From: Terriglobus sp. TAA 43
GTDB lineage: Bacteria > Acidobacteriota > Terriglobia > Terriglobales > Acidobacteriaceae
Assembly (NCBI RefSeq): GCF_000800015.1
Contig: NZ_JUGR01000001.1
Location: 2,852,001 to 2,916,000, forward strand
Direction of reading: 5' to 3'
DNA: 64,000 nt
Part shown: positions 37,882-56,985 of the stretch, one piece after another
Layout: every line of letters starts with the position of its first letter
How positions within the stretch are numbered: position 1 is the stretch's first letter
Notes under the pieces: generated by a model
What the model was told of the DNA's origin: nothing
The model's database searches: none
Seen by the model: the letters and a program-made list of their open reading frames with translations, nothing else
Program-made: the position numbers and the translations under genes

Positions 37882-38122
37882 GCCCACTGTCCTTTTGTAG
37901 CTTGGAAATCGCCACGTTACCGTTGCTCTTTAGTGGCGATATCACCCCTGATATCAAAACCCGGATTTATTTGGATATCGGTAACTCCCTGTGGTGACCG
38001 ATGTCCATTCTCGTTGCAAGATAGTGGAACAGTTCCTCTGAATTTGGCTTCTGCGCTGGTGATTCAGCCGGACAGAAGAATCAGAGGCATAACAATAACC
38101 CCCACGCTTCAAGGAGAACAAC
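37882..38122. promoter_or_regulatory. Divergent control region between the GGDEF-EAL gene and flp
   Basis: 241 bp without genes. It holds three GATATC sites at 37938, 37950 and 37974, and a GGAACAGTTCC palindrome at 38026-38036. It ends with AAGGAG upstream of flp. The first two GATATC sites match an element upstream of the giant lipoprotein gene. I see no convincing -35/-10 pair or riboswitch. Confidence 0.6.
37938..37967 (+). promoter_or_regulatory. GATATC-N6-GATATC element, copy 1 (flp/GGDEF-EAL)
   Basis: GATATC at 37938 and at 37950, exactly 12 bp apart, with AAAACC-CGGAT following. The second copy lies at 49489-49518. The direct repeat at about one helix turn suggests binding of a dimeric regulator on one DNA face. 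Confidence 0.5.
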
Positions 38123-38370: not shown

Positions 38371-38907
38371 ATGATATCGCATGCAATCGTGTTGCAGTCG
38401 TACACCGCTGCGGTGGCACTTTGTGCCGCAGTTATGGATGTGCGATCGCGCCGCATTCCGAATTGGTTCACGCTCCCCACTCTTATTGGGGCACTCGTAC
38501 TGCAGGTAACCACTGGAGGCCTGCATGCACTCGCGCTATCGTTTGTAGCGTCCGTGCTTGCAGGCTCTCTCTTCCTTGTGCTGTTTCTGGCAGGAGGAAT
38601 GGGCGGAGGAGATGTGAAGCTTATCGCTGCAATTGCAGCGGGCGTTGGTCTCTCGAACACGGGAGCACTTCTCGCACTCACCGCACTCTGTGGTGGGATC
38701 ATGGCCATCGTTGTCATCGTGTGGCGTGGGCGCGTTTGGCAGTCCGTGCAAAATGTTGGCCACATCATGGCGCATCATTGCGAGAACGGTCTGGAGCCTC
38801 ATCCGGAACTGAACGTTCGCAATAACCGCAATCTTCGTCTGCCGTATGCATTGGCCATCACAGCCGGTACGCTGCTGACGATTTCTCTCCAGAAGGTCGG
38901 ACAATAA
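38371..38907 (+). CDS. tadV: Prepilin peptidase TadV/CpaA
   Basis: A 178-aa inner-membrane aspartic peptidase (A24A family) that removes the Flp leader. Catalytic Asp residues are D23 in VMDVRSRRIPNWF and D81 in GGGDVKLIA. It has 4-5 hydrophobic segments and lacks the N-methyltransferase part of PilD, as usual for CpaA. A linear C-terminal extension (about residues 130-165, hydrophilic and His-rich) is longer than common. It lies 71 bp after flp and 1 bp before cpaB. Confidence 0.93.
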   Translation: MISHAIVLQSYTAAVALCAAVMDVRSRRIPNWFTLPTLIGALVLQVTTGGLHALALSFVASVLAGSLFLVLFLAGGMGGGDVKLIAAIAAGVGLSNTGALLALTALCGGIMAIVVIVWRGRVWQSVQNVGHIMAHHCENGLEPHPELNVRNNRNLRLPYALAITAGTLLTISLQKVGQ

Positions 38908-38908
38908 C

Positions 38909-39736
38909 ATGCAACCACGGCGGCTCCTCATTGCACTTACCGTTGCAATCATTGTCTCGGGACTATTTACGCTTTGGCTCGGCACCAGGCTGTCGCATCA
39001 GGCCAGAAATTTCGAAAGCTTAAAGTATGTTGCGCTCGCCAAGAACCTTGATCCTGGACAAGTCATTGGCGCAGATGATCTCAAGCAGATTTCATGGCCT
39101 GCGGGTGTGCCTTTGCCCGGTGCCTTTGTGCGCAAGGATGAGGTTGTCGGTAAGTCGGTGCTATATCCCTTGCAGGAAGGCGAGCCCCTGACAGCGCGTC
39201 AGCTTGCAACCAGCGCCGGTCTTTCCGCCCGTATCCCTGCCGGTATGCGAGCCATCTCACTCAAGTCGAATGAAGTGGTGGGTGTCGCCGGATATCTTCT
39301 TCCCGGCACTCACGTAGATGTACTGGTGACGGTGCACGCCGCTTCGTCCGCTGACCCCATCACATCCGTCGTATTGCAAGACGCGCAGGTACTTACTGCA
39401 GGCGAGAAGATGCAGCCCGACCCGGATGGTCACGCCAGCAAGGTTGATGTAGTCACGATCCTGGTGTCGCCCGACGACGCAGAGAAAATCGTGCTCGCCA
39501 GCACACAGGGAACTGTTCACTTTGTTCTCAGAAACGGCGGAGACCATGCCGTGGCAACGAATGCTCCGATGAATCTTTCCGCATTGGGTGTTCAGGCGAC
39601 TTCCACGGCTGCACCCGCCGCCGTCGCTCACGTATCTCCACGCGGACAATCTCAGCCGATGCATACCAAACCGACGCCCGCCACATACAGTATCCAGGTT
39701 CGCCGCGGCGATAAAGATTCCGTGGAGACCTTTTAA
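38909..39736 (+). CDS. cpaB: Flp pilus assembly protein CpaB/RcpC
   Basis: A 275-aa protein anchored by one N-terminal helix. A SAF domain (AKNLDPGQVIGADDLKQISWP) and the RcpC/CpaB domain (VVGVAGYLLPGTHVDVLVTVH, LQDAQVLTAGEKMQPD, VTILVSPDDAEKIVLA) follow, then a Pro/Ala tail. It is thought to link the secretin to the peptidoglycan or the inner membrane in Tad systems. Its stop overlaps the rcpA start codon by one base. Confidence 0.92.
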   Translation: MQPRRLLIALTVAIIVSGLFTLWLGTRLSHQARNFESLKYVALAKNLDPGQVIGADDLKQISWPAGVPLPGAFVRKDEVVGKSVLYPLQEGEPLTARQLATSAGLSARIPAGMRAISLKSNEVVGVAGYLLPGTHVDVLVTVHAASSADPITSVVLQDAQVLTAGEKMQPDPDGHASKVDVVTILVSPDDAEKIVLASTQGTVHFVLRNGGDHAVATNAPMNLSALGVQATSTAAPAAVAHVSPRGQSQPMHTKPTPATYSIQVRRGDKDSVETF

Positions 39737-41235
39737 TGTACCGTCTCAATCCGCTTCATCGCTCCGCCCTATGTTTCGCTCTCCCGGCAATTATGTTGTC
39801 AGCATTCGTTCATGCAGAGCGTCCGCAGCCACACGCCCTTGCAGCCGGCACCGATGCGGAGAAGAGCAGTGTCGCTTCCGCTCAACCGGCATCCACGTCC
39901 GGTCACAGCGCGCCTTCGACAAGACAATCGGCGGTATCGGGAATGGAGAGCGCAGTGCTCTCCGATGCGCCAACGCATCTTCTCATTGGTCGGTCAGCAT
40001 ACGTCACTTCACAGAAACGGCTCTCGCGGGTGTACATCACCAACCCGAACGTGCTGTCCGCGTATACGGCCACACCTAATGAAGTATTGGTCACCGCAAA
40101 AGAGCCAGGCGTAAGTTCCCTCATGATCTGGGATGAGAGCGGGGAGGCGCACACCTACTTCTATTCGTCTGATGTGGAAACAACTTTGTTGGAGAGTGTG
40201 TTGAAGTCGGCTCTGCCGAACGAAAACATTACGGTGCGCGCCGACGGCTCGCGCGTTCTTCTGTCGGGAACCGTCAGCAATGCGACGTCTTATCAAACTG
40301 CGGAGAAGCTTGCCGCTCAATACTCAAAAGATGTGTCCAACGCTATCGTTGTGAATCCCGCAACAGCACGCCAGGTTCGTCTGCACGTCCGCATGATTGA
40401 GGTGGATCGGACGAAACTGGAGCAGCTAGGTTTCAACCTGTTTAGTTCGGGTGGGAATACGTTAGCGCAAAGTACTACTTCGCAGTTTCCCTCCAGCCTC
40501 ACCACTACGACAGGTAGCAATAGCAGCAGTGGTGGTAGTAGCGGTAGCACCTCCACGGTAGGTAATAAGACTGTCTCTATCACCAACCCGTTGAATTTTC
40601 TCCTCTACAACGCAGATCTGAATCTTGGTGCCATGATTCAGGACCTGGAACAGCGGAATGTTCTCCAGATTCTTGCAGAGCCGAATATCACCACACTCAG
40701 TGGAGAGAAAGCCAACTTTCTGGCAGGCGGTGAATTTCCATTTCCCGTGGTGCAGGGAGGCATAAGTGGCCTCACATCCATCACAGTTCAATTTCGTCCT
40801 TACGGTGTGAAGCTTGAGTTTCTTCCGCAGGTGAACGCCGATGGTTCCATTGCCCTGAAGGTTGCGCCAGAAGTAAGTGCGTTGGATTACACGAATGCCG
40901 TGCAAATCAGCGGCTACACCATCCCCGCTATCTCAAGCCGCCGAGCAGACACTCAAGTCGTATTACATGACGGACAGACGTTCGCAATTTCCGGGCTGTT
41001 GGATCAACGTACGACAGACCAGCTTGGACGTACGCCTGGAATCGCGAACATTCCGATACTTGGCAATTTGTTTAAGAGCAAAAACATTAATCACTCTACT
41101 TCAGAGCTTTTGGTTCTTGTCACACCAGAGATTGTTGATCCATCGAAAGAGCAGGTAAAAGAACCGGCTCTGGCAGTGAAGATGCTGGACCCTACCAACT
41201 TTGACGACAAGATGCAGAAGAACCCAAAACACTAA
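39736..41235 (+). CDS. rcpA: Flp/Tad outer-membrane secretin RcpA/CpaC
   Basis: A 499-aa secretin with a signal peptide (ALCFALPAIMLSAFVHAERP). It has an N-terminal domain GRSAYVTSQKRLSRVYITNP, a BON-like part (VRADGSRVLLSGTVSNATSYQTAEKLA), a Gly/Ser/Thr linker and the secretin core: NLGAMIQDLEQRNVLQILAEPN, GGEFPFPV, GVKLEFLPQVNADGSIALKVAPEVS, and SELLVLVTPEIVDP. It forms the outer-membrane pore for the pilus. No RcpB/TadD pilotin-like gene is present in the locus. Confidence 0.94.
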   Translation: MYRLNPLHRSALCFALPAIMLSAFVHAERPQPHALAAGTDAEKSSVASAQPASTSGHSAPSTRQSAVSGMESAVLSDAPTHLLIGRSAYVTSQKRLSRVYITNPNVLSAYTATPNEVLVTAKEPGVSSLMIWDESGEAHTYFYSSDVETTLLESVLKSALPNENITVRADGSRVLLSGTVSNATSYQTAEKLAAQYSKDVSNAIVVNPATARQVRLHVRMIEVDRTKLEQLGFNLFSSGGNTLAQSTTSQFPSSLTTTTGSNSSSGGSSGSTSTVGNKTVSITNPLNFLLYNADLNLGAMIQDLEQRNVLQILAEPNITTLSGEKANFLAGGEFPFPVVQGGISGLTSITVQFRPYGVKLEFLPQVNADGSIALKVAPEVSALDYTNAVQISGYTIPAISSRRADTQVVLHDGQTFAISGLLDQRTTDQLGRTPGIANIPILGNLFKSKNINHSTSELLVLVTPEIVDPSKEQVKEPALAVKMLDPTNFDDKMQKNPKH

Positions 41236-41275
41236 AAGACACACCGGATGTTGGGTGTGAAGAAGGATGCAGGCA

Positions 41276-42514
41276 ATGTATCAATTGAACGGAACTCTCG
41301 ATGTCGTTGTGCTCACAATCGGAACGGAAGAGCGCGTCACACGGGAACTTCTGGACGTCGTGAACATGCGCAATTGGTCAAGCAGTGCATTCCACTTTGA
41401 GCGCTATCTTACTTCGCTCCGCCACCCATCCATTGGGCAGTACATCTCGTCCTCAAACGGTTGTCTGGCCTTTGTCGACTATGATCGCAATCCTGATGAG
41501 GCCGCGGAGACAGCACAGTATCTTTCGAAGGTCTATCCGGGCAAAGTTCTTATTGTTGCTGTGGGCAAGCGGCCCTCGTCGACCGCCATTCTGGTTGCGA
41601 TGCGCGCAGGCTGCAGCGAATACTTCACCAAACACTCTCCTCCGCAGGAACTGGATGTATTGCTCGATCGCTTCCAGCAACAGTGCTTCACCGAGGTAGA
41701 AAGCCACGCCACAAACGGCGCAGTGCTTTCCGTTCTTGGAGCCAAGGGCGGCGTTGGAGCCACCAGCATCGCAGTGCATCTTGCCACGTACCTTGCGCAA
41801 TATCACCAGCGGAAAACGCTGCTCATTGACCAGCAGCAGATGCTAGGTCACGCTTGCGTCTATCTCGGTATCGACGGAGAACACCATACGCTTGGGGAGG
41901 TCGTTCGCAATCTCAAACGCATGGACAGTGAATTACTTCGCGGCTTCGTTGCGCATCATTTCAGCGGTCTCGATGTGCTGTCGTCGCCGGATGCATCCAG
42001 CGATCAGGACCTCGTTCCTCCGCAGGAATTCGTACGCACCCTTGAATTTCTGCGAGGCGAATATGACTACGTCATCCTGGATTGCGATCGCAGGCAGCCG
42101 GACCTCTGGCCCAGCCTGGCGACTGCTTCGTCCGAGATTCTGATGGTTGCCACACCAGAAGTGGCCGCGGTGCGTGATCTTTCCCGCATTGCCGATGGTC
42201 TCGTTGTGACAGAAGGTACGTCCTCAAAGCTGAAGGTTATTCTCAATCGCTACAACGCCCCGCACGCACTGGCAGCCGATCAGATCGAAAACGTTCTTAA
42301 GCTTCCCATCGCGCTCAAACTTCAAGACAGCCCGGGCGAAATGGTCTTTGCCTCCAACTCAGGAAAGACGCTTAAATACCCAGGCCCAAGCCAGCTTGCG
42401 ACCGCTCTGCATGGATGGAGCAGCAAACTTGCAGACATCAATGCAAAACCTGCATCAGCGCGCAAGCAGGATAAGTCTGTTTCGCGATGGCGGCAGCTTA
42501 TGCCCGCCTGGTAA
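41276..42514 (+). CDS. tadZ: TadZ/CpaE localisation ATPase
   Basis: A 412-aa protein with an N-terminal receiver-like domain (DVVVLTIGTEERVTRELL, ILVAMRAGCSEYF) and a C-terminal ParA/MinD ATPase domain. The deviant Walker A is LGAKGGVGATSIAVHLA, and LDCDRRQPDLWPS holds the Walker B region. It places the Tad machine in the cell. ATG 41276 has AGAAGG 9 nt upstream and is preferred to the ATG at 41267, which overlaps that site. Confidence 0.9.
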   Translation: MYQLNGTLDVVVLTIGTEERVTRELLDVVNMRNWSSSAFHFERYLTSLRHPSIGQYISSSNGCLAFVDYDRNPDEAAETAQYLSKVYPGKVLIVAVGKRPSSTAILVAMRAGCSEYFTKHSPPQELDVLLDRFQQQCFTEVESHATNGAVLSVLGAKGGVGATSIAVHLATYLAQYHQRKTLLIDQQQMLGHACVYLGIDGEHHTLGEVVRNLKRMDSELLRGFVAHHFSGLDVLSSPDASSDQDLVPPQEFVRTLEFLRGEYDYVILDCDRRQPDLWPSLATASSEILMVATPEVAAVRDLSRIADGLVVTEGTSSKLKVILNRYNAPHALAADQIENVLKLPIALKLQDSPGEMVFASNSGKTLKYPGPSQLATALHGWSSKLADINAKPASARKQDKSVSRWRQLMPAW

Positions 42515-42597
42515 ACGTGCATCACCGATCCAACAAGGAAATCAAGAAGCCAATGGCAGTGAACAGCATGATCACGATCGATGAGGGGGAAGTCGCA

Positions 42598-43896
42598 ATG
42601 CCCATTCGTCATAGCATCTCGGAGGCCACCCAGCAGGAGGTGAAGTCGGCGGTGCATCGTGAGTTGCTGAAGAGGCTTGATCTTGAACGCCTCGCCGAGT
42701 TCAATGAGACGCGCTCCAGCCAGCAGCAACTCTTTGCCATCATTCACCGCATCGTTACGGAACAAAACATTCCGTTGAGCGCGGCGGAGCGCGATCGCCT
42801 GACGCAGGAGGTTCTGAACGAGGTTTTCGGTCTCGGACCTATCGAACCCCTGCTCCACGATCCCACGGTCAGCGACATCCTGGTCAACACCTGGGACTCA
42901 GTGTATGTAGAGCGTCGCGGTCTTCTGGAGAAGACCAACATTGTCTTCAAGGACAATCGCCACCTGATGCACATCATTGAGAAGATTGTGTCCGCGGTAG
43001 GCAGGCGCGTTGATGAGATGTCGCCCATGGTGGACGCTCGTCTTCCGGACGGCTCCCGCGTAAACGCCATCATTCCGCCGCTCGCCATTGACGGGCCTAT
43101 CCTTTCAATCCGCCGGTTCGGCAATACACCTCTCACTGCGGAAGATCTGATCCGTTCGAAGATGCTTGCTCCTGCAATGCTTGAGGTTCTTCGCATTGCT
43201 GTTGAATCACGGTTGAACATCGTGGTTTCCGGTGGTACCGGCGCAGGCAAGACGACGCTGCTGAACGTGTTGTCTGGATTCATCTCTGAACGGGAGCGCA
43301 TCGTTACCGTAGAAGACTCCGCAGAACTTCTGCTTCGTCAGGAGCACGTCGTGCGTCTTGAAACGCGCCCGCCGAACCTGGAAGGACATGGTGCTATTCG
43401 TCAACGCGAACTGATCATGAACGCGTTGCGTATGCGTCCCGATCGCATCGTAGTGGGCGAGGTTCGCGGCGAAGAGACACTCGATATGTTGCAGGCCATG
43501 AATACAGGCCACGATGGTTCTCTCACCACCATCCACGCAAATTCTCCGCGCGATGCGGTGGCCCGCCTTGAAACCATGGCAATGATGGCCAATGTCGGTC
43601 TTCCGGAAAAAGCGATTCGTAATCAGATTGCATCGGCTGTCCACCTCATCGTGCAGGTGGCCCGCATGAGCGATGGCTCACGCCGCATTACACACATTGC
43701 AGAAGTCGCGGGGACACAGGCAGACATCGTAGCGCTGAATGATCTTTATCTCTTTGAACGTATGAGCACTGGATCCGCCGGTAAAGTGGCCGGCCGCTTT
43801 TACTCGCCGGGCGTCCTTCCCCGCTTTGCGGGCAGGCTTCATGACACCCCGCCTCACGTCATTGCTGAGCTTCTGAACGTGAGTGTGGAGGTCTAG
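42598..43896 (+). CDS. tadA: Tad secretion ATPase TadA/CpaF
   Basis: A 432-aa secretion ATPase that powers Flp pilus assembly. Sites are Walker [37 protein letters not shown] (Asp box), Walker [13 protein letters not shown] and the His box [17 protein letters not shown]. The N-terminal domain includes [19 protein letters not shown] 42598 has GAGGGGG 8 nt before it; a start at 42553 would add 15 residues and is possible. It follows tadZ after 83 bp, part of which may encode the longer N-terminus. Confidence 0.95.
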
Positions 43897-43900
43897 CGAC

Positions 43901-44863
43901 ATGTGGCTTTCTCTTTGCTTCATTCTGCTCACATCGATCATCTTCGGTGCCGTAGTATATGGCACCAAGCCGTCGAGGGTAGCCACGGAAGCAGAGGTGC
44001 GTCTACAGACCCTGGTCGTCCTCACAAAGCCGTCGCAAGCGAAGACGCCACAGGCCAGCCTCGAGAAAAAGATCCCGAGTTCGTACTTCTGGTTAGAGAA
44101 GCGTCTCGAAGGTACTCGTGTGCTGCGATACATTCGAGTGCTGCTATTACAGTCCAGAAGCGACTGGAGTCCTGGCGGAGTGATTCTCTCTGTCCTCGGC
44201 CTGCTTGTTATGTTGCCGTTGCTAACGGGCCTCGCAACCGGAAACCCCATCCTCATGGTCGCTGCATTTGTTTGTTCCTTTGCGCCGGTGCTTTGGCTCC
44301 GCACGAAGCGGCAGCGCCGCATCAAGGACTTTGAAACCGCACTTCCGCAAGCGCTGGAGATGTTTGCGCGTTCGCTGCGTGCAGGCCACGCCATCCCGGT
44401 TGCGATTGGCGTGCTTGCAGAAGAAGCGCCGCTTGCTGTCCGTCAGGACTTCGCAGAGGCGCACCGCGATCAGAACTATGGGTTGCCCATTCGCGATGCA
44501 TTCACTGCCATGCTGGAACGTGTTCCATCGCGCGATCTGCGAATTTTTATTACGGGGCTTCTCATCCAGAAAGATACGGGTGGAAATCTTCCAGATGTAA
44601 TGGATCGCATTGTGGCCGTCATTCGCGATCGTGTGCGCATACAGGGAGAGGTGCGTACGCACACTGCGCAAGGTCGGCTCACGGGTTGGATTCTTTGCCT
44701 GCTACCCATAGCGCTGTTGTTGGTCATCAACGTTATGAGCCCGGGATATTCGCGCGTCCTCTTTCACGATCCGATGGGGCGCAAACTCCTCTACACCGGC
44801 GCCGTGCTCTTATGCCTCGGTATCATTACCATTCGCCAGATCATCCGCGGGATTGAAGTGTGA
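43901..44863 (+). CDS. tadB: Tad inner-membrane platform protein TadB
   Basis: A 320-aa type II secretion F-domain protein. It has an N-terminal helix, a central helix pair (LGLLVMLPLLTGLATGNP), the cytoplasmic block FETALPQALEMFARSLRAGH and GLLIQKDTGGNLPDVMDRI, and two C-terminal helices. It forms the pilus platform with TadC. GGAGG lies 9 nt before ATG 43901, inside the end of tadA, so the two are translationally coupled. Confidence 0.93.
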   Translation: MWLSLCFILLTSIIFGAVVYGTKPSRVATEAEVRLQTLVVLTKPSQAKTPQASLEKKIPSSYFWLEKRLEGTRVLRYIRVLLLQSRSDWSPGGVILSVLGLLVMLPLLTGLATGNPILMVAAFVCSFAPVLWLRTKRQRRIKDFETALPQALEMFARSLRAGHAIPVAIGVLAEEAPLAVRQDFAEAHRDQNYGLPIRDAFTAMLERVPSRDLRIFITGLLIQKDTGGNLPDVMDRIVAVIRDRVRIQGEVRTHTAQGRLTGWILCLLPIALLLVINVMSPGYSRVLFHDPMGRKLLYTGAVLLCLGIITIRQIIRGIEV

Positions 44864-44867
44864 TCCC

Positions 44868-45761
44868 ATGAACCTTCTCTTTATATGTTCCGCGGGCTTC
44901 GCCGTCTTTTTCATCATTCTGCTTCTTGCCACACCTGTATTGCTGAAGAAGTCAGCCGATGCAGATCGTCTGCGGCACCTGATCCACCCAAACCAAGTCA
45001 TCACAAAAACATCCTCACCACACCTCAAAGAACTTGTAGCGCGTTGGACCGCGGTTTTGCGTCCGCGCGCCGGCACTCGCCGAAGTGAACAGGCAAGAGA
45101 AAAGCTGGAAGCAGCAGGCCTGCGGACATCCATGCAGAGGGACACCTACGCATCGGTGCAAGGGATCGCACCTTTGGCCGGCCTTTTTCTTGGTACCTTT
45201 GTTCGCGGAAATATGATGCTGGCCTGTGTCGTGCTGGGTGCCATCGGCTATCTCGGGCCAGATATCTGGTTGCGACGACGTATTCGTTTGTACAAGGCGA
45301 AGCTTCTCCGCTCTCTTCCAGATGCGTTGGATCTGCTGAACATCTGCGTGGAAGCTGGACTCGGTCTGGATCTCGCGATGCTGCGCGTGTCGGATGAGCT
45401 GGCACTAAGTCATCCGGAGTTACATACAGAGTTCCAACGCGTGCAGTTGGAGCAGCGCGTGGGTGGCGTAAGGATGGACGCCTGGAAACGGTTCGCAGAA
45501 CGATCCGACATAGAAGAAATCAGATCGTTCGTTGGAATGCTCGTACAGTCCGAGCGATTTGGAACTCCCATTGCACGTTCACTGAGTCGCTTTGCAGATG
45601 ACTTGCGCACGCAACGTAGACAGGGGGCCGAAGAAGCCGCCGCCAAAACCCGCGTCAAGATCGTTTTTCCCCTGGTCTTCTTTATCTTTCCCTGCCTGTT
45701 CCTCGTGTTACTGGCACCGGCGATCATCAGCCTGTTTGGAATTTTCAAAGACCTTCAATAA
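44868..45761 (+). CDS. tadC: Tad inner-membrane platform protein TadC
   Basis: A 297-aa F-domain protein, partner of TadB. It shows an N-terminal helix, SLPDALDLLNICVEAGLGLDLA, GMLVQSERFGTPIARSLSRFADDLR and a C-terminal helix FPLVFFIFPCLFLVLLAP. ATG 44868 is 4 bp after the tadB stop; a TTG at 44853 would overlap it and is less likely. Spacing supports coupled expression. Confidence 0.93.
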   Translation: MNLLFICSAGFAVFFIILLLATPVLLKKSADADRLRHLIHPNQVITKTSSPHLKELVARWTAVLRPRAGTRRSEQAREKLEAAGLRTSMQRDTYASVQGIAPLAGLFLGTFVRGNMMLACVVLGAIGYLGPDIWLRRRIRLYKAKLLRSLPDALDLLNICVEAGLGLDLAMLRVSDELALSHPELHTEFQRVQLEQRVGGVRMDAWKRFAERSDIEEIRSFVGMLVQSERFGTPIARSLSRFADDLRTQRRQGAEEAAAKTRVKIVFPLVFFIFPCLFLVLLAPAIISLFGIFKDLQ

Positions 45762-45808
45762 CTCAACCGTTCGACCTAAACGAAGTATCCACATAAGGAG
45801 ATAGCCCA

Positions 45809-45901
45809 ATGGACATGACAACAATGATTCGCATCGCAGCGGGTGTTCTGGCAGTTTTGATTCTCGGCGTGATCGTCTATCGTCGCCGCAGATCGGCATA
45901 A
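45809..45901 (+). CDS. 30-aa single-helix membrane microprotein in the tad operon
   Basis: A very short gene: MDMTTMIRIAAGVLAVLILG, then VIVYRRRRSA. It has one helix and a basic end, so by the positive-inside rule the C-terminus would face the cytoplasm. AAGGAGAT lies 6-7 nt before the ATG, the best Shine-Dalgarno in the operon, and the next gene starts 2 bp after its stop. No known family. It sits between tadC and the DUF192 gene. It may be a small structural or regulatory part of the Tad platform; this is inference. Confidence 0.65.
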   Translation: MDMTTMIRIAAGVLAVLILGVIVYRRRRSA

Positions 45902-45903
45902 CG

Positions 45904-46302
45904 ATGCGGCACAGGCGCATAATCTCTGTCCACACTTTTGCTGAAGATGCTGTCGTTGCCTCAAGCGTTGTGGTGGCAGATACTTCCATCAGCCGCGCGG
46001 TGGGTCTGTTGGGGCGCACACATCTTCAACAGGACGAGGGCATTTGGATCAAACCGTCTTCGGGCGTGCATACCATCGGTATGCGATTTCCCATTGACGT
46101 GATTGGCCTGGACAAACAGCTTCGCATCGTACGCCTTTGGCCTTCACTCAAACCGTATCGCGTCACAGCGATTGTGCCGTCGATACGGACTGTCCTCGAA
46201 CTAGCCTCAGGCAGGATCGTTGAATCCGGCCTGCGGCTTGGGGACCAACTTCGCATTCAGGAGTCCGCCCTTTTTGATGAGGCGTCTATTCCAACTTCGT
46301 GA
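45904..46302 (+). CDS. DUF192 protein in the tad operon
   Basis: A 132-aa DUF192 (COG1430) protein: VADTSISRAVGLLGRTHLQQDEGIWI, then GVHTIGMRFPIDVIGLD and LKPYRVTAIVPSIRTVLELASG. The pattern M-R-F-x-I-D-V/I is the family mark. There is no signal peptide, unlike many family members. The function is unknown. It starts 2 bp after the microprotein stop and overlaps tadG by 26 bp, so it is in the tad transcript. Confidence 0.82.
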   Translation: MRHRRIISVHTFAEDAVVASSVVVADTSISRAVGLLGRTHLQQDEGIWIKPSSGVHTIGMRFPIDVIGLDKQLRIVRLWPSLKPYRVTAIVPSIRTVLELASGRIVESGLRLGDQLRIQESALFDEASIPTS

Positions 46303-47698
46303 CGATAGCGGACAGGTGTTGGTGATCACCGCCCTTTGTATGGTGGTGCTCATCGGATTTCTGGGTTTGGCTGTTGATATCGGGTCCGTCCGCCATGAGC
46401 AGCGTCGTCTGCAGAATGCTGCGGATGCGTCTGCGCTTGCAGCAGCGCTTGAAGTTCGCGTATGCGGTAGCACGCCCAACTGCGCGGCCATGCAGACAGC
46501 TGCACAGAATGCCCTGGTAGAAAACGGGTACACAGGCAGCAGCGCTCTCATCACTGACTGTGCCAGCAGCCCAGGCTCCGGCCTCACCATCACGTTGCAC
46601 AATCCCCTGTGCCCTGGCAGTTCTGACCCGAACAAGTCTCGATACAACTACGTGGAAACTCAGGTCTCAGAAAAAGCTCCGCTCTACTTCTCGCGTATCT
46701 TCGGCTTCACCGGCTTCAACCTTAGTGCACGCGCAGAAGCAGCACGAGGCGTTGGTGGGCCGTGTATTTATGCACTCAACCCCAGCGCGTCGGGCGCGTT
46801 GAATGTTGGTGTTGGTGTTGGCTTTCGATCCAACTGTGGTGTTGTTGTTGAATCCAGCAGCCGCAGTTCTGTTAACTGTCTCGTAGGCCTCGGTGTCACC
46901 GCGCCTTATGTCCAGGTCTCTCCAACCGGGGGCGGTGCCAGCCTTCTGTGTCTTGGGAGTACTCATGTCACGCAAGCTCCCGTACCGGTTCCTGCAGATC
47001 CGCTCGCATATCTTCCTGCTCCCCCGAATGCGAACGATCCCTGTGGGACGAGTAGTGGCAATGTCTACAACGGTTCGCAGAGTGCGGTGCAACTGGGATT
47101 GCTTGCAGGTCTTACAGGTAATGTCACTTTTAATCCTGGTGTCTACTGCGGTGGTATCTCCATTACAGCCGCCTTATTGTCCAATATCACCTTCAATCCC
47201 GGTACATATATCTTGCGCAATGGCCCTGTGTACTCTCTTCTTGGCATTCGCACCGGCACCGCAAGCGGATTCACGATGACCGTTAGTGTCCTGAGCAGCA
47301 TTGTTGGCAACGGGGTCACGTTTTATAACGAGGGCGATGCAGGAAGCTTCTCGCTCACAGCCAGCTCTTTGCCGTTACAGCTCTCCAATTTTCAACTCAC
47401 TGCGCCAACAAGCGGGAATTATGGTGGCATCCTTTTTTGGCAAGCGAGCGGAGTCCAAAATACAGGAACGTTTCTGGCAACGCTGCTCCAAGGGTCTCGC
47501 GTGGATGGTGTGATCTATATGCCGAGTGCGCTTGTTACCTATGGCGTGAGTGTTGCCGGAGGCGCGTCTAAATACAACGGCATCGTTGCGGATCGTGTGC
47601 AGTTCACAGCGAACGTCCTGAGCGTTATAAGCAATGATTATTCCACTCTCCTGAGTGGAGCACCATTCAATGGAGATCGCTCGGAGCTTGTGCAATGA
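46277..47698 (+). CDS. tadG: TadG-like pilus-associated protein with beta-helix-like C-terminus
   Basis: A 473-aa protein with the TadE/G start: DDSGQVLVITALCMVVLIGF and GLAVDIGSVRHEQRRLQNAA, then ADASALAAALE. The rest (about 400 residues) is Gly/Ser/Thr-rich with repeated F-N-P-G-x-Y units (NVTFNPGVYCGGISI, NITFNPGTYILRNG), which suggests a beta-helix or beta-sandwich exposed outside. There is no VWFA domain as in canonical TadG. Start is ATG 46277; upstream starts are less likely. Its stop overlaps the next gene by 4 bp. Confidence 0.82.
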   Translation: MRRLFQLRDDSGQVLVITALCMVVLIGFLGLAVDIGSVRHEQRRLQNAADASALAAALEVRVCGSTPNCAAMQTAAQNALVENGYTGSSALITDCASSPGSGLTITLHNPLCPGSSDPNKSRYNYVETQVSEKAPLYFSRIFGFTGFNLSARAEAARGVGGPCIYALNPSASGALNVGVGVGFRSNCGVVVESSSRSSVNCLVGLGVTAPYVQVSPTGGGASLLCLGSTHVTQAPVPVPADPLAYLPAPPNANDPCGTSSGNVYNGSQSAVQLGLLAGLTGNVTFNPGVYCGGISITAALLSNITFNPGTYILRNGPVYSLLGIRTGTASGFTMTVSVLSSIVGNGVTFYNEGDAGSFSLTASSLPLQLSNFQLTAPTSGNYGGILFWQASGVQNTGTFLATLLQGSRVDGVIYMPSALVTYGVSVAGGASKYNGIVADRVQFTANVLSVISNDYSTLLSGAPFNGDRSELVQ

Positions 47699-48180
47699 AC
47701 CTGCGCAATTTGCGTCTTCATCTTGTTTCGCGATCTGCCACGTTCGCACTGCGGCAGGATGGCAACAGCCTTATTGAAACGGCGCTCGTCCTTCCCGTAT
47801 TGCTTCTTCTGCTTGCGGGAGCAGTGGACATAGGCCGTGCCTTCCGTGCTGCCATGATAGTGAACGCAGCGGCACGCACGGGTGCTGCATACGGTATTCA
47901 TTACCCCACAGACACCGCAGGCATGATGCTTGCGGCAAAGACAGATACATCCACCCTTGTTACTGTGACGCCCACCGCAACGTACGGATGCGAATGTCCA
48001 GGCGGAGGGACCAGCGCGATTGCTTCCTGTGCGTCCGAGCCATCGTGCCCTTCAGGAATGAACAGTGTGTATTACGTGGAATTGGACACCACTGCGACAT
48101 ATACGCCTATGCTCCCGTGGCCGGGTATCTCCAGGACCATTCCCCTCACGGCAAAGGTGAGACTACGTGCTTCGCGATAG
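47695..48180 (+). CDS. tadE: TadE-like minor pilin 1
   Basis: A 161-aa pseudopilin. LRQDGNSLIETALVLPVLLL carries the TadE motif (E in S-L-I-E-T-A-L), followed by AGAVDIGRAF and MIVNAAARTGA. The body has four cysteines (CECPGG, CASEPSC) that could form disulfides. Processed by TadV, it probably helps pilus initiation. It overlaps the tadG stop by 4 bp and the next tadE by 14 bp. Confidence 0.85.
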   Translation: MNLRNLRLHLVSRSATFALRQDGNSLIETALVLPVLLLLLAGAVDIGRAFRAAMIVNAAARTGAAYGIHYPTDTAGMMLAAKTDTSTLVTVTPTATYGCECPGGGTSAIASCASEPSCPSGMNSVYYVELDTTATYTPMLPWPGISRTIPLTAKVRLRASR

Positions 48181-48670
48181 ACACTTTCGTACGAGTGAAC
48201 TCTTCCGCGAGGAAACGGGCAACACGCTGCTCGAGACCGCTCTTTGTCTCAGCGTTGTGCTCCTGGTCATCCTCGGAATTATGGAATGTTCGTTGGCTGT
48301 CTATACAGAGCACTATGTGGAATCAGCCGCTGCCAGCGGAGCACGCTACGCCATGGTACGCGGCGGCACATACAGTGGAATCTCATGTGGCGCGGCTACT
48401 TCGTACTATTGTCAGGCAGGCACGAGCGACATACTGAACTACATCAAAGCAAACGCGGCACCAGGGATTAAGGTGTCCAATCTATCTGTCACAGCATCAT
48501 GGCCGGGAACAGCAGGAACGAGTAGTGCATGCGATACCGCACAGGGAAGCAATAGTCCAGGATGCCTGGTAACTGTAACCGTTAGTTATCCATTTACCTT
48601 CATGCTTCCCATTCCGTTGCATAAAGGCATTACCTTGCTTGCAAGCCGTTCCACAATTATTTCTCAATAA
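48167..48670 (+). CDS. tadE: TadE-like minor pilin 2
   Basis: A 167-aa TadE paralogue: FREETGNTLLETALCLSVVL with the conserved Glu, then GIMECSLAVYTEHYVESAAASGARYAM. The C-terminal domain has three to four further cysteines. It begins with a GTG inside the end of the preceding gene. It is the last gene of the tad operon; there is no terminator with a T-run after it. Confidence 0.85.
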   Translation: MLRDRHFRTSELFREETGNTLLETALCLSVVLLVILGIMECSLAVYTEHYVESAAASGARYAMVRGGTYSGISCGAATSYYCQAGTSDILNYIKANAAPGIKVSNLSVTASWPGTAGTSSACDTAQGSNSPGCLVTVTVSYPFTFMLPIPLHKGITLLASRSTIISQ

Positions 48671-49647: not shown

Positions 49648-52600
49648 ATGCTTGATCTGCCCAGTGTCCTCGAAAAAAGACCAATACCGTTATTACGCGG
49701 AAGGCTGTTGTTAGTTCAGCTCGCCGTATTCCTTGTGTGCTTTGCCATGGCAGGCTGCGGTGGTGGTTACGCCGGCGGTGTTGTCCCAAGCCTGGCATCT
49801 TCAAAAGTCATCATCGATGGCGGCCAAACGTTCATGGAAGTGGCCACCAATCCTGCGAATCTTCCTCTCACCTGGTCACTGTCGGGTACAGGATGCTCCG
49901 GACAGACGTGCGGCACGTTGAGCGACGGCTCTGCATTAGGCGCAACCTATGTCGCTCCCAATGTGACGCAGCAGATCACGGTGACGCTTACAAGCACGGT
50001 CACCGGAACTCAGAGTTCCAGCACCACCACCATCGTTGTGAATCCGGATCCACAGATAACCGGTACGGCGGCGGATGCGACGGTAGGAACGGCATACAGC
50101 ACAACATTCGCTCTGACGGGTGGAACGCCCACACTCAAGTGGCTTCCCGTGAAGGGCACTCTGCCTGCGGGTCTCAGCTTTAGCACCACCACTGGAATTC
50201 TGTCCGGCACCCCGACGGCTGCCGGAACAAGCACGTTTACGCTTCAGGCCGTTGACTCCAGCGATGTGCCTTTCACGGTGACGTCGACGATCACCCTGAA
50301 GGTGAACACGAGTTCCAGCAATTCCTCGCTGCAGGCGGTAGGTGCCACGCCCGATGGCACAGTGAATGTGTCCTACGTTGCTGTGTTGCAGGCTAGTGGC
50401 GGCACGAGTCCGTACAACTGGAGCATTGCAAGCGGAACGCTTCCAGCAGGCCTGAATCTCTCTGCTACCGGCATCATCTCCGGCACACCGACGGCGGCAG
50501 GAACATCCACCTTCACCGCGCAGGTAAAGGATGCCGCAGGTGCAATCGCAACGCTCAACCTCACGCTGAAGATCAACGCTGCATCGTCGGGTGGAACGCT
50601 TACCATCGCCACTTCCACGTTGCCCAGCGGCACGGTGCAGATTGCTTACGCTGCCAGCATCACCATCACTGGTGGTACGGCGCCCTACACTTGCTCGGTT
50701 GATTCTGGTTCGCTTCCTGCGGGTCTCATACTGGGTAGCAACTGCGCAGTCACCGGCATTCCCACAACAGCAGGCACCAGCACATTCACGGTGCATGTCA
50801 CTGACGCCGCCAGCCCGTCCAACTCCGGATCGGGTTTGATCACCATCGTCATCAATCCTGCGTCGGCAGTGCTTGTTCTCGCGTCGCCTCCTCCAGCAAC
50901 CGTCGGCCTGCCTTATAGCGGCGCTGTCTCGGTAACGGGTGGCACTGCACCGTATCACTGCGTGCTTGCCTCGGGTGCTATGCCTGCAGGTCTCACGCTC
51001 GGTTCGGATTGTGTCATCAACGGAACACCGCTGGTTGCGGGTACCACGTCCATCGGCGTCACAGCAACCGATTCCACGAACCCGGCAAACATCACCACGG
51101 CCACTGTTACCGTCACGGTGCAGGCTCCGCTCATCACGCTCACCATTACAGCTCCGCCCGTTGCGGTTGTTGGCGTGCCGTATGTCGGAACCATCCTGGT
51201 CGCAGGCGGCACCGCGCCGTATCAGTGCACGCTGGTCTCGGGTACGTTGCCCAATGGACTCACCCTGGGCTCCAACTGCGTCATCACCGGAACGCCGCAA
51301 ACACCGGGTACATCCACGGTAGGCATTACGGTTACTGACTCTGCGAACCCGCCCAATACCAAGACAACCACCGTCAACATCACTGTGATCGGAAGTCTGC
51401 TCACGCTAACCATCACCGCACCTCCGGTCGCAGTGGTGAACGTGCCTTATGTTGGCCTGGTCACCGTTGTTGGCGGCATCGCTCCCTACACGTGCACGGT
51501 GGCATCGGGCACACTGCCTGCCGGTCTCACGCTGAACGCCAACTGCGTGATCACCGGTACACCCACCACACCTGGCGCATCCACGGTCAACATCACAGCC
51601 ACGGATTCCGCCAACCCTGCAAACACCAAGACGTCCCCGGTCACCATCACGGTGCAGGGCGCGTTGATTACCCTCACACTCACGGCACCTCCAGTGGGTG
51701 TGGTGAACGTGCCGTACGTCGGCGTCATCCTCGTACTGGGTGGAACGCCGCCGTACACCTGCTCCGTGTCTTCGGGCACGTTGCCTCCTGGCCTCACGCT
51801 GCACAGTGACTGCACCTTCGTGGGCACGCCGACCTCGGCAGGTACGTTCTCGGTCAATGTCTCTGTCCACGACTCTGCCAGCCCCGTCAACTCCACGACT
51901 GCCGCTGTGCCAATCACCATCCTTGGCGCAACGTCGTCACTCATCCTTACCGGACCGGCAAACGCTACAGTTAGCACACCGTATAGCGGAGCTATCAGTG
52001 TTACGGGCGGAACCGCACCGTATACCTGCGTAAAGAACAGCGGCAGCCTGCCAGCAGGCCTGACGATGGCCGCAAACTGCGCCATCACTGGCACGCCCAC
52101 CACGGCTGGTACGTCCACCTTCAATGTCACGGCAACCGACTCGGCCAGCCCGGCCCAAACGGGCACCGCGAATATTGTCATGACCGTCAATCCGATCAGC
52201 CCGCTGTCGCTGACCGGCGGTCTGCCTAACGCAACGCTCGGTGTGGCCTACACGCAGACGCTGCAAGCAACGGGCGGACTCCCGCCGTACACCTACACCG
52301 TCACCTCCGGATCGCTGCCAGCGGGTCTCTCGCTGAACGGCACCACGGGTGTGGTTAGCGGAACACCAACCGCGGTGGGCGCAAGCAGCTTAACCATCAC
52401 AGCAACCGACAGCCAGTCCACACCGCAGCAAGCCAGCCTCCCGCTGACCATGCAGGTGCTCTATCCCTCCACACCTTCTGACGCTCTTCTCAAGGGCCCC
52501 TACGCGTTCCTCTTCCAGGGCTATGACGATGTGTTGGTGGGCGTCCTCGCATACCAGACCGCAACCGTCGGCAGCATTACCGCAGATGGCAACGGGCTGC

Positions 52601-54081
52601 TCACGGCTGGCGAACTGGATAGCAACCACCAGTCCTCCAACCCGACGGGCAACACCATCTCCACCAGCAACCTGCTTGGCACGTACACCCTGGGTACAGA
52701 TGGTCGCGGAACACTTGCCGTAACCACTCTGAACGCAGACGGTACTGCAGGTAACACCACACTCTACTCAATCGCTCTGAAGCTGCCCACGGCTCCGGCC
52801 ACGGCTGCATCGAGCGGCAGCATGATTGAGTCCGATGGCAGCATCCTGGTCGCAAGCAAGGGATCCGGAACGCTGCTGGCGCAGAACGCCAATGTGTACG
52901 GCAACGGTCTCACCGGCGGCTATGCCTACGGTGTCTCCGGCGATACACCGTGCATTCCAACCTGCACCATCGGCCTGATCGCTGGACCGGTTGCCTCGGT
53001 CGGACAGTTCACTGCCAACGGCGGAACCATCACCGGTGTCAGCGATACAAACATTGCCAGCACCAACTACGCCAGCTCCACACTGGCAGGCGCCAGCTCT
53101 GCCGCGGACACCAATGGCCGCGTCGGTCTGACACTGACCAGCTCGAAGCTCTCGGGACTGGCTTACCCAACTCACTACGCCGTGTACCTCGTGGATCAGA
53201 CCCACGCGTTCCTCATGTCCACGGACAAGCACTCGTCCTATGTGCTGCAGGCTGGCACTATTCAATCGCAGTCTCAGACCACGTTCAGCAACGCGTCGCT
53301 CAATGGTCCGTTCGTTGGCTATGAGAACGCGGCAATCAACCCGGGCATCATTGGCACCGCGCTCGATAGCGTACTCAATCTGTCCTCGGCCAACGTTATC
53401 CGTGGCACGGGCAACAACAACGGTACCTGCACCACCACCAACGCGGATTCAGCCGGTCTTACGGGCCTGGTCAACACACTGACTGGTCTCGGTGGCAACA
53501 ACAACCTGCTGAACTACGTTCTCGGTACCTATCAGTCCACGGGCAACAGCGCCTGCGCTGTCTCCTCTAACGGACGCGTTGTCTTCAACTATCCCGCACC
53601 CGATCCATCCCTCCTGACACCTATTCTTCAGTTGTTGGGTCTGACGGGTAACCCTCCCCCGCCTCGTGTGGTTTACCTCACGGGCAACAACTCCGGCTAC
53701 TTCCTGGAGACGGGCTATGCAGGTCTCGGCCACATGGAAGCGCAGGCAGCCGGTCCGTTCACTCTGGCAAATCTGAATGGCACCTATATCTATGGCACGG
53801 TCCCGGCCTCCAGCCTGGCCACCATCGACGGTGACGGTGCGTTCAGTGCGGACGGTGCAGGAAACCTCACCTATACGACGGACACCAATATCGGTGTGGG
53901 CAACCTGAACATCCTGCAACTGGGTATCAGCGGTAGCGCAACCTACAGCCTTACGGATGCAGCTGGAGGACGCTATCTGCTGAACGACGGAAGTGTGGTT
54001 TACGCTCTGTCGCCAGGCCGGTTCGTGGTACTGAAGGGTGGCTCGCTTAGCACCGCTCCGTACACGGCAATCCTGTACTAA
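49648..54081 (+). CDS. Giant Ig-like-repeat lipoprotein (putative adhesin)
   Basis: A 1477-aa surface protein. A lipoprotein signal ends FAMAG-C37, followed by GGG. Then come nine tandem repeats of ~88-90 residues (He_PIG/putative Ig type), each with the pattern T-V-x-x-x-Y, G-G-T-x-P-Y, L-P-A-G-L and I-x-G-T-P-x-x-x-G. In repeats 3-8 there are two Cys, after P-Y-x and in (N/D)-C, able to form one disulfide each; repeats 1, 2 and 9 lack them. The last ~500 residues have three modules starting L-(K/N)-G-(P/T)-(Y/F). It is probably a stalk carrying a head domain. GGAGG is 4 nt before ATG 49648. It is followed by a U-less hairpin and ompA-like gene. Confidence 0.85.
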   Translation: MLDLPSVLEKRPIPLLRGRLLLVQLAVFLVCFAMAGCGGGYAGGVVPSLASSKVIIDGGQTFMEVATNPANLPLTWSLSGTGCSGQTCGTLSDGSALGATYVAPNVTQQITVTLTSTVTGTQSSSTTTIVVNPDPQITGTAADATVGTAYSTTFALTGGTPTLKWLPVKGTLPAGLSFSTTTGILSGTPTAAGTSTFTLQAVDSSDVPFTVTSTITLKVNTSSSNSSLQAVGATPDGTVNVSYVAVLQASGGTSPYNWSIASGTLPAGLNLSATGIISGTPTAAGTSTFTAQVKDAAGAIATLNLTLKINAASSGGTLTIATSTLPSGTVQIAYAASITITGGTAPYTCSVDSGSLPAGLILGSNCAVTGIPTTAGTSTFTVHVTDAASPSNSGSGLITIVINPASAVLVLASPPPATVGLPYSGAVSVTGGTAPYHCVLASGAMPAGLTLGSDCVINGTPLVAGTTSIGVTATDSTNPANITTATVTVTVQAPLITLTITAPPVAVVGVPYVGTILVAGGTAPYQCTLVSGTLPNGLTLGSNCVITGTPQTPGTSTVGITVTDSANPPNTKTTTVNITVIGSLLTLTITAPPVAVVNVPYVGLVTVVGGIAPYTCTVASGTLPAGLTLNANCVITGTPTTPGASTVNITATDSANPANTKTSPVTITVQGALITLTLTAPPVGVVNVPYVGVILVLGGTPPYTCSVSSGTLPPGLTLHSDCTFVGTPTSAGTFSVNVSVHDSASPVNSTTAAVPITILGATSSLILTGPANATVSTPYSGAISVTGGTAPYTCVKNSGSLPAGLTMAANCAITGTPTTAGTSTFNVTATDSASPAQTGTANIVMTVNPISPLSLTGGLPNATLGVAYTQTLQATGGLPPYTYTVTSGSLPAGLSLNGTTGVVSGTPTAVGASSLTITATDSQSTPQQASLPLTMQVLYPSTPSDALLKGPYAFLFQGYDDVLVGVLAYQTATVGSITADGNGLLTAGELDSNHQSSNPTGNTISTSNLLGTYTLGTDGRGTLAVTTLNADGTAGNTTLYSIALKLPTAPATAASSGSMIESDGSILVASKGSGTLLAQNANVYGNGLTGGYAYGVSGDTPCIPTCTIGLIAGPVASVGQFTANGGTITGVSDTNIASTNYASSTLAGASSAADTNGRVGLTLTSSKLSGLAYPTHYAVYLVDQTHAFLMSTDKHSSYVLQAGTIQSQSQTTFSNASLNGPFVGYENAAINPGIIGTALDSVLNLSSANVIRGTGNNNGTCTTTNADSAGLTGLVNTLTGLGGNNNLLNYVLGTYQSTGNSACAVSSNGRVVFNYPAPDPSLLTPILQLLGLTGNPPPPRVVYLTGNNSGYFLETGYAGLGHMEAQAAGPFTLANLNGTYIYGTVPASSLATIDGDGAFSADGAGNLTYTTDTNIGVGNLNILQLGISGSATYSLTDAAGGRYLLNDGSVVYALSPGRFVVLKGGSLSTAPYTAILY
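50055..52465 (+). repeat. Nine in-frame Ig-like repeats within the giant lipoprotein
   Basis: About 265 bp per unit. Units 4-7 are the most alike (shared APPVAVV and YVG words), so recombination between them could change length. The repeats are coding, not CRISPR. Confidence 0.85.
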
Positions 54082-54169: not shown

Positions 54170-55270
54170 ATGACTCGCATCATGGCTGCACTTCTTGTTG
54201 CATCCGTTGCATCTCCCCTGGCCTTTGCGCAGGCGCGCCCCAGCGGTGCTGACTGGTCCGCTCCCCGCACCACACTTTCCGTCGGTTACGCAAAAGTTCG
54301 CTCCAACGCACCTCCGGGCCAGTGCAACTGCTTCGGCGCCGATGGCGGATATGTCTCCGCTGCATACTCTCTTCTTCCGTGGTTCCGCATTGCTGGTGAA
54401 GTCACGGGCAGCCATGCAAATCACATTGGAACGCTTGGTCAGAATCTGACGTTGCTCACCTATACCGCCGGGCCACAGGTGGTTGTGCCCGCAGGTCGCT
54501 TTGAGTTCTTCGGTCATGGACTCTTCGGCGCCGCGCATGGCAGTGACTCTTATTTCCCATCGGGTAATACGGTCAGCAGCTCTGCCACCAGCTTTGCGAT
54601 CAGTACCGGCGGTGGACTCGACATTGGTCTTACACGCCACATTGGTGTCCGTGCGGCGCAGGTTGAATATCTGCGAACAAGCTTTCCAAACCAAGGAAAC
54701 AACCGGCAGAATCACACGGTGTTTAGCGCGGGCCTTCTGTTCCGGTTTGGCAGCGCATATCGCGATGATTCCGCACGCAACGATGCGTACAAGGTGCAGC
54801 GCGACATGGAGAAACAGGCGCATGACGCGAAGGCAGAACCGCAGGTCGCAGCAGCAACACCACCACCACCGCCTCCACCTCCTGCGACTTCCACGACCAT
54901 CAAGGCCCCTGCGTCGGCAGATGTCGATTTCGACCGCAGCGTAGAGAGCGCCTACTTCGATTACGACAGCTACGAACTCCGGCCCGATGCTCTGGCTGCT
55001 GTGCTGAAGGATGCGACGTTCCTTAAATCACATCCTGATCTTGAGGTTGTTGTTGCGGGATATGCCGATGAACGTGGAACTGCGGAGTACAACCTTGCGC
55101 TGGGACAGAAACGTGCACAATCTGTGCGTGATCAGCTCATCGCCGACGGTGTATCACCAGCCAAGCTGGACGTTGTCAGTTATGGCAAGGAAAAGCCATC
55201 ATGCAGCGATGAGACTGCCGCGTGTTTTCAAAAGAACCGTCGCGCCTCACTGGAGAACCACTCGCGATAA
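54170..55270 (+). CDS. OmpA-family outer-membrane protein
   Basis: A 366-aa protein with a signal peptide (MTRIMAALLVASVASPLAFAQ), an N-terminal eight-strand-like barrel (TLSVGYAKVRS, FRIAGEVTGSH, GLDIGLTRHIGVRAAQ, VFSAGLLFRFG), an eight-Pro linker and a C-terminal OmpA/Pal peptidoglycan-binding domain (VESAYFDYDSYELRPDA, VVAGYADERGTAEYNLALGQ, ACFQKNRRA). The Asp and Arg for diaminopimelate binding are present. It may anchor the outer membrane to the wall near the giant adhesin. AAAGGA precedes the ATG. Confidence 0.9.
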   Translation: MTRIMAALLVASVASPLAFAQARPSGADWSAPRTTLSVGYAKVRSNAPPGQCNCFGADGGYVSAAYSLLPWFRIAGEVTGSHANHIGTLGQNLTLLTYTAGPQVVVPAGRFEFFGHGLFGAAHGSDSYFPSGNTVSSSATSFAISTGGGLDIGLTRHIGVRAAQVEYLRTSFPNQGNNRQNHTVFSAGLLFRFGSAYRDDSARNDAYKVQRDMEKQAHDAKAEPQVAAATPPPPPPPPATSTTIKAPASADVDFDRSVESAYFDYDSYELRPDALAAVLKDATFLKSHPDLEVVVAGYADERGTAEYNLALGQKRAQSVRDQLIADGVSPAKLDVVSYGKEKPSCSDETAACFQKNRRASLENHSR

Positions 55271-55310: not shown

Positions 55311-55342
55311 GGTGGAGGGCCGTGTAAAAGCGGCTCTCCACC
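55311..55342 (+). terminator. Hairpin after the OmpA-like gene
   Basis: GGTGGAGGGCCG pairs with CGGCTCTCCACC (one G-T) around TGTAAAAG. No T-run follows. It lies before the HD-GYP start, supporting that gene's ATG at 55393 rather than the frame start at 55312, inside the stem. Confidence 0.55.
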
Positions 55343-55392
55343 CAGGAAAGGATGAAGGCCGAGGAGCTCAGCAACTCTCGTCTTCTTCGAAT

Positions 55393-56908: not shown

Positions 56909-56985
56909 TGGTAGGCACGAATGGATTCGAACCATCGACCTCTACCGTGTCAAGGTAGCGCTCTAACCAACTGAGCTACGCGCCT
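56909..56985 (-). tRNA. tRNA-Val (GAC)
   Basis: Read on the minus strand: acceptor AGGCGCG pairs with CGTGCCT (one G-U), D-arm GCTCAGTTGGTTAGAGC, anticodon stem CTACC/GGTAG with loop TTGACAC (anticodon GAC), T-loop TTCGAAT, and an encoded CCA end. It decodes GUC and GUU. It stands alone, with no tRNA partner or integrase nearby. Confidence 0.95.

Follow-up and report, generated by a model that had tools for sequence, protein, structure and literature searches.

Why does a long bacterial lipoprotein carry exactly one pair of cysteines (Cys) in each of its middle repeats, and none in the repeats at its two ends? The question is raised by a gene in a 64,000-nucleotide stretch of the Terriglobus sp. 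TAA 43 genome (contig NZ_JUGR01000001.1, positions 2,852,001 to 2,916,000 of the forward strand), to which we refer as the window and whose own numbering is used throughout; the genome is 4.95 Mb in size and 99.88% complete. The open reading frame (ORF) runs on the plus strand from an ATG at 49648 to a stop codon ending at 54081, the same coordinates as in the original prediction made from this DNA, and encodes a predicted lipoprotein of 1477 amino acids (aa). For the reasons given below, we consider it probable that the product is an exported, cadherin-like stalk in which a disulfide joins strand C to strand E of each middle domain, and that it acts as a spacer of adjustable length.

The architecture of the protein is simple to describe. 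A signal peptide and lipobox occupy 49648..49758 (signal LAVFLVCFAMAG-C, ending in ..CFAMAGC, with the lipid-bearing Cys at aa 37) and conform to what is expected of bacterial lipoprotein signals. They are followed by an N-terminal region, with approximate boundaries of 49780..50028, that contains the Cys pair 83/88 (CSGQTCG); a CxxxxC or CxxxC pair stands at this place in the orthologues that we inspected by eye. The Pfam family He_PIG (PF05345) then matches in nine stretches (276.2 bits against a gathering cut-off of 24; E 1.1e-83), all nine of which exceed the cut-off in the genome search. The nine immunoglobulin (Ig)-like repeats that had been read from the sequence therefore stand, and no other Pfam family matches the 1477 aa at E <= 0.001. 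Segmentation with a hidden Markov model (HMM) delimits the nine domains. Domain 1 (50029..50292) and domain 2 (50308..50568) have no Cys, and domain 2 has a tryptophan (W) at the place of the first Cys. A Cys pair is found in domain 3 (50581..50841; Cys 349/366), domain 4 (50848..51108; 438/455), domain 5 (51115..51375; 527/544), domain 6 (51382..51642; 616/633), domain 7 (51649..51909; 705/722) and domain 8 (51916..52176; 794/811), while domain 9 (52183..52446) again has none and carries a tyrosine (Y) at the first site. A C-terminal region of a different kind completes the protein (52456..54078).

The number of Cys per He_PIG domain thus follows the pattern 002222220. The six pairs are each 17 residues apart, recur with a period of 89 aa, and stand in the contexts PYxC and (N/D)C. 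Both the pairs originally noticed in repeats 3 to 8 and the lack of Cys in the first two and the last repeat are borne out. Outside the He_PIG domains, further Cys pairs are present at 83/88, 1102/1106 and 1261/1303.

We followed these pairs across 29 orthologues, made up of the window protein, five others (L042-L046), and a further 13 and 10 from later searches. The 13 all belong to Acidobacteriota, namely Edaphobacter, Granulicella, Silvibacterium, Occallatibacter, an uncultured Terriglobus, and Acidobacteriaceae, Acidobacteriales or Acidobacteria with no genus assigned. Because the later searches were queried with the C-terminal region and not with the repeats, the content of Cys did not select the orthologue set; the search that gave the 10 also recovers the window protein and L042-L046. 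From the 24 strongest C-terminal matches (E <= 2.1e-115), 16 were used, being those of the window, the L042-L046 genomes and ten new genomes. The other eight were left out as presumed duplicates on account of their equal frame lengths (G195, G141, G121, G109, G177, G203, G133 and G111); G121 and G109 share one frame length, and one of them may be a further, uncounted orthologue. Weaker C-terminal matches were not counted as orthologues.

The 29 orthologues contain 281 He_PIG domains, of which 186 have exactly two Cys, 95 have none, and not one has any other number. If the two sites were independent, the observed frequencies would predict about 126 single-Cys domains per 281. Three paralogues from the same genus, which have a different C-terminal region, behave in the same way (34 domains: 28 with two Cys, 6 with none, none with one), so that among all 315 domains there are 214 with both Cys, 101 with neither, and none with one. 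When the domains are aligned, the first Cys falls in a single column in 214 of 214 cases, and the second in another single column, also in 214 of 214. The spacing between the two is 14, 15, 16, 17 or 18 residues in 14, 36, 81, 53 and 2 of the 186 orthologue domains, respectively; the loop between the paired Cys drifts in length, and the pair itself stays. Apart from the lipid Cys, the mature proteins have an even number of Cys in all 27 orthologues with a recognised lipobox, with totals from 8 to 30. This pattern of pairing is far beyond chance.

Where do the two Cys lie in the fold? A model of domains 2-4 (predicted local distance difference test, pLDDT, 91.9; predicted TM score, pTM, 0.57) is a cadherin-like beta-sandwich. 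Its neighbours in the PDB include 4ogz, 4nzj, SraP (4m00) and many cadherins, with Z of about 9 to 12; 4nzj aligns with Z 11.2 and a root-mean-square deviation (rmsd) of 2.2 over 84 residues, and SraP 4m00 with Z 10.9 and rmsd 5.7 over 170. In the numbering of the model, Cys129 is within strand C (128-134), and Cys146 is one residue ahead of strand E (147-150). Excerpts of a published description of the He_PIG fold (PMC6936399) place strands A', G, F and C in one sheet and B, D and E in the other. The two Cys thus lie on opposite sheets. Provided that strands C, D and E run in alternating directions, C and E would both begin at one pole of the sandwich, so on grounds of topology, not of a measured distance, the paired Cys should face each other across it.

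The cell also appears to be equipped for such bonds. The same genome encodes a VKOR protein (E 4.9e-17) and three DsbA-family matches, which makes the formation of disulfides outside the cytoplasm plausible. That each middle repeat holds one disulfide, as had been proposed at the outset, gains strong support from the all-or-none distribution of Cys, the even totals, the export signal and these oxidative-folding genes. Judging from the sequences, disulfides very probably form in the middle He_PIG domains.

We next consider how the Cys type arose. A FastTree tree of the domains, from which the Cys columns had been masked out, requires just 2 changes between the Cys and Cys-less states. This points to about one origin of the Cys type, after which both Cys were retained together, and we reject a history of many independent co-gains on the same ground. 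At the first Cys site, the Cys-less domains of the orthologues most often have W (29) or Y (27), among the 90 that could be parsed (5 of the 95 could not). In species-level comparison, the Cys-paired domains vary from 2 to 12 copies across the orthologues, and one orthologue (L097) has 15 He_PIG domains in all. The ends of the array are more constant: the last He_PIG domain before the C-terminal region is Cys-less in 29 of 29 orthologues, and at least two Cys-less domains precede the Cys block in 26 of 27 (the truncated L057 and the short, diverged L103 being excluded). L103, which is from the genus of the window, has a diverged frame of 873 aa with only three He_PIG domains, a Cys pattern of 220, and no OmpA-family neighbour.

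Sequence identities point to where the array changes in length. Among 26 of the 29 proteins (L057, truncated, and L098 and L103, short and diverged, were excluded), the Cys domains have a mean identity of 0.66 within a protein, with values up to 1.00, as against 0.57 between proteins, a figure computed from up to four Cys domains per protein, starting with the first. Domains 1 and 2 show the opposite relation, with 0.57 each to their counterparts in other species versus 0.47 to each other within a protein. The likeness of Cys domains within a protein, together with the likeness of domains 1 and 2 across species, indicates that duplication occurs mainly in the Cys block. The Cys repeats of the window protein have a mean identity of 0.53, and those of L044 reach 0.89.

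The original prediction had gone further and pictured a rigid middle with flexible ends. We reject this description of the ends, because the model is as confident of the Cys-less domain 2 as it is of Cys domains 3 and 4, and because the C-terminal end of the protein consists of four more beta-rich copies. The gaps between HMM envelopes are 5 and 4 residues on the two sides of domain 2 and 2 residues at every later junction, including that before domain 9, and model confidence at the junction of domains 2 and 3 is 74 versus 83 at that of domains 3 and 4. The longer gaps around domain 2 and the lower model confidence at its junction with domain 3 are a mild hint of flexibility near the N-terminus.

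Taken together, we propose the following mechanism. The lipoprotein would leave the cytoplasm, receive its lipid at Cys37 and fold after export, its nine He_PIG domains forming a cadherin-like string. One cross-sheet disulfide would form in each of domains 3-8, between a Cys where strand C begins and a Cys just ahead of strand E in the opposite sheet, and would replace the W or Y that is commonest at the first site of Cys-less domains. From about one origin, the Cys type would have spread by tandem duplication, and the array would lengthen and shorten mainly in the Cys block. This block might thereby serve as a hardened, length-adjustable spacer between the region of the lipid anchor and the conserved C-terminal module, and the OmpA-family protein encoded by the next gene may well cooperate with it at the outer membrane. 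We lean towards display of the lipoprotein on the cell surface, which seems to us somewhat the likelier location.

Several observations weigh against this proposal. The co-occurrence of the two Cys counts as about one origin followed by perfect joint retention, not as many independent co-gains. The residue after the lipid Cys, which is Gly in 26 of 27 orthologues, says little in this phylum; the 27 are those in which the lipobox pattern was matched, the remaining two of the 29 being the truncated L057 and L103, which the pattern missed and another pattern matched. One protein (L098) has only one Cys-less domain ahead of its Cys block. Two others (L051 and L099) have seven and six Cys-less domains followed by only two Cys domains, which indicates that the disulfide staple is not required for a long array. 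Finally, L102 has one Cys-less domain within its Cys block, and this domain resembles domain 2 of the same protein.

The alternative that survives best accepts that the disulfides are real, but holds that the lipoprotein spans the periplasm and, jointly with the OmpA-family protein, connects the outer membrane with the wall instead of forming a surface stalk. The gene directly downstream (54170..55270, plus strand) encodes an outer-membrane beta-barrel joined to an OmpA C-domain (Pfam OMP_b-brl and OmpA). An OmpA-family gene is directly downstream in 27 of the 28 loci that cover the downstream DNA; L103 is the locus that has none, and L054, whose DNA ends at the stop codon, is not among the 28. 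Its C-domain is matched in 25 of the 27 partners (that of the window and 24 of the 26 other adjacent ones), the two without a match being L050, at a contig end, and L057, a short frame. The OmpA C-domain is a wall-binding type of domain. Moreover, lipidation does not decide between the inner and the outer face of the membrane, and disulfides form in the periplasm in any case. Against a periplasmic location, nine He_PIG domains and five other domains, or 15 He_PIG domains in L097, would if extended probably exceed the width of a normal periplasm, and a range of 2 to 12 Cys copies would be odd for a gap of fixed width. We therefore regard a periplasm-spanning link as unlikely, though it comes closest to the exported stalk that we favour. 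Whether the OmpA-family protein is in fact a partner of the lipoprotein is a matter to which we give even chances.

A different assignment is suggested by what lies upstream. In the window, the lipoprotein gene follows a Tad/Flp pilus locus recognised by Pfam (38371..48670, plus strand), which encodes a prepilin peptidase, RcpC/CpaB, a secretin, a ParA-type ATPase (TadZ by position), a T2SSE ATPase (TadA by position), two T2SSF proteins, a TadG-like protein and two TadE proteins, with a DUF192 gene inside it. The lipoprotein could accordingly be a dedicated component of the Tad pilus, such as a tip, anchor or alignment protein. Tad genes are near the lipoprotein gene in 9 of the 29 loci, in three arrangements: upstream on the same strand, downstream on the same strand, and downstream on the opposite strand. 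In the flanks of the other 20 loci, some of which are short or one-sided (such as L050, L054, L057 and L101), five Tad/T2SSF queries gave no match at E <= 1e-5. The OmpA-family gene is nearly always present. With Tad genes near only 9 of 29 loci, as against an adjacent OmpA-family gene in 27 of 28, we rejected a Tad component as our principal interpretation and consider it improbable.

Could the Cys do something other than pair within their own domain? The sequences by themselves would be compatible with Cys that bind a metal or that cross-link neighbouring chains in a filament, roles with which even totals of Cys also agree. An Asp that is invariant across the domains (D75, D166 and D255 in the first row of the alignment) might be a metal ligand. 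This Asp is, however, present in the Cys-less domains as well, and so does not travel with the Cys, and neither His nor Glu occupies any of the nearly invariant columns of the alignment. As each domain has exactly two Cys, at fixed places in the fold, and the genome has genes for oxidative folding, metal binding or interchain cross-linking is in our view very unlikely. The least credible alternative, in which tandem duplication multiplied pairs of Cys that the lineage had acquired by accident and selection played no part, would suit a domain tree with only 2 state changes, but is hardly tenable when 0 of 214 Cys-type domains have lost one partner at an average identity of 57% between proteins.

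How does the stapled stalk compare with systems already described? The closest are He_PIG proteins themselves: 4nzj, named as He_PIG in the portion of PMC6936399 that we draw on, and SraP 4m00 share the domain family and cadherin-like fold of the window protein, which differs in the strand-C to strand-E Cys pair of six of its domains. With Periscope Proteins, which are stalk proteins of variable length (see also PMC8201768) and are taken here as presented in parts of PMC9704523, the window protein shares a single-chain array of individually folding tandem domains, and varying copy number would set reach. It differs in having an N-terminal lipobox and an Acidobacteriota host. Periscope Proteins have highly identical tandem repeats, according to the same part of PMC9704523, whereas the window Cys repeats are on average 53% identical, and variation in copy number is here known between species. 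The intimin/invasin-type stalks of Ig repeats and the isopeptide-bonded pili, to the extent that PMC9704523 is drawn on here, have in common with our protein the robust stalk of tandem domains, to which the pili add a covalent bond. Unlike the intimin/invasin type, the window chain has no Pfam barrel, the barrel being encoded by the separate OmpA-family gene, and unlike the pili it has Cys pairs instead of isopeptide bonds. Rib domains are likewise Ig-like tandem surface domains and are compared structurally with He_PIG in the excerpts of PMC6936399; these state that Rib domains have no strands equivalent to D and E, which would leave no place for this Cys pair. We found no description of Cys-paired He_PIG stalks among the open-licence PMC papers listed, as judged by titles and the openings of abstracts. 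What is known already is the domain, its fold and the notion of a stalk of variable length; the Cys-paired He_PIG stalk appears from its sequence to be a new variant.

If this variant is what it seems, it provides a natural experiment on covalent reinforcement, as a single chain combines stapled and unstapled copies of one fold, and the number of stapled domains ranges from 2 to 12. Should the bonds form, the effect of stapling on unfolding force, reach and resistance to proteases would be open to direct study, on surfaces of soil bacteria that have been little studied, and the nearly constant OmpA-family gene pair offers a concrete candidate partner. A bolder version of the proposal, which we put forward tentatively and regard as rather doubtful, is that the protein is a redox-hardened surface periscope of tunable length: a lipid-anchored He_PIG stalk in which mainly the stapled domains are duplicated, with a dedicated OmpA-family partner, while other lineages of the phylum appear to staple the same fold elsewhere, between an N-terminal Cys and a Cys in the F-G loop, as a second and separate solution. 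Were this true, copy number would tune the length of the stalk, and oxidation outside the cytoplasm its toughness.

We also looked for the Cys type in other sets of He_PIG domains. By eye, it was present in none of the 95 He_PIG domains from 24 other loci of the family, a small sample chosen by score. Among 30 high-scoring PF05345 loci across the phylum, again a small sample chosen by score, it was found in 9 of 103 domains, all of them in two fragments of orthologues, L122 and L123. Within the genome of the window, the He_PIG proteins L040 and L041 lack the Cys type, and the paralogue L039 has it. This paralogue (G000:C1:983k) has two Cys-less domains followed by 11 Cys-paired ones, and its relatives L047 and L048 have 13 and 4; all three have a different C-terminal region and no Cys-less last domain. 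Other He_PIG arrays of Acidobacteriota (L105-L134, for example L106, L111, L112, L115 and L128) show an N-terminal Cys in a 'CPxI' motif and an F-G loop Cys in 'NGCTG'. When a crude pattern for these two motifs was applied to 94 domains, 45 had both motifs, 33 had neither and 16 had one alone; pattern misses seem to account for several of these 16, and a few seem real.

About one third of the lipoprotein (aa 937-1477, 541 aa) is not Ig-like and consists of four diverged, beta-rich copies of about 130 aa. The copies are similar to one another in pairwise internal BLAST (E 1.6e-6 to 0.11), and their strands are seen in a model that also includes He_PIG domains 8 and 9 and is of middling confidence (pLDDT 74.8). 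The region has no Pfam match at E <= 0.001 and no sequence match in the PDB up to E 1, and among the matches listed in fold searches with the C-terminal model, most were to its two He_PIG domains. Both Cys pairs of the region, 1102/1106 and 1261/1303, are found without exception in the 14 C-termini that were aligned. Of 200 genomes of the order, 88 contain stretches related to the four-copy unit of about 130 aa.

A scan for promoters and terminators gave no more signals than were found in shuffled sequences. Farther from the lipoprotein gene, a GGDEF-EAL protein is encoded on the minus strand beyond the Tad locus (35557-37887), and an HD-domain (HD-GYP-like) protein is encoded past the OmpA-family gene (55312-56811). 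At gathering scores, Rfam matches nothing in the window but a transfer RNA (tRNA) gene on the minus strand (56912-56985).

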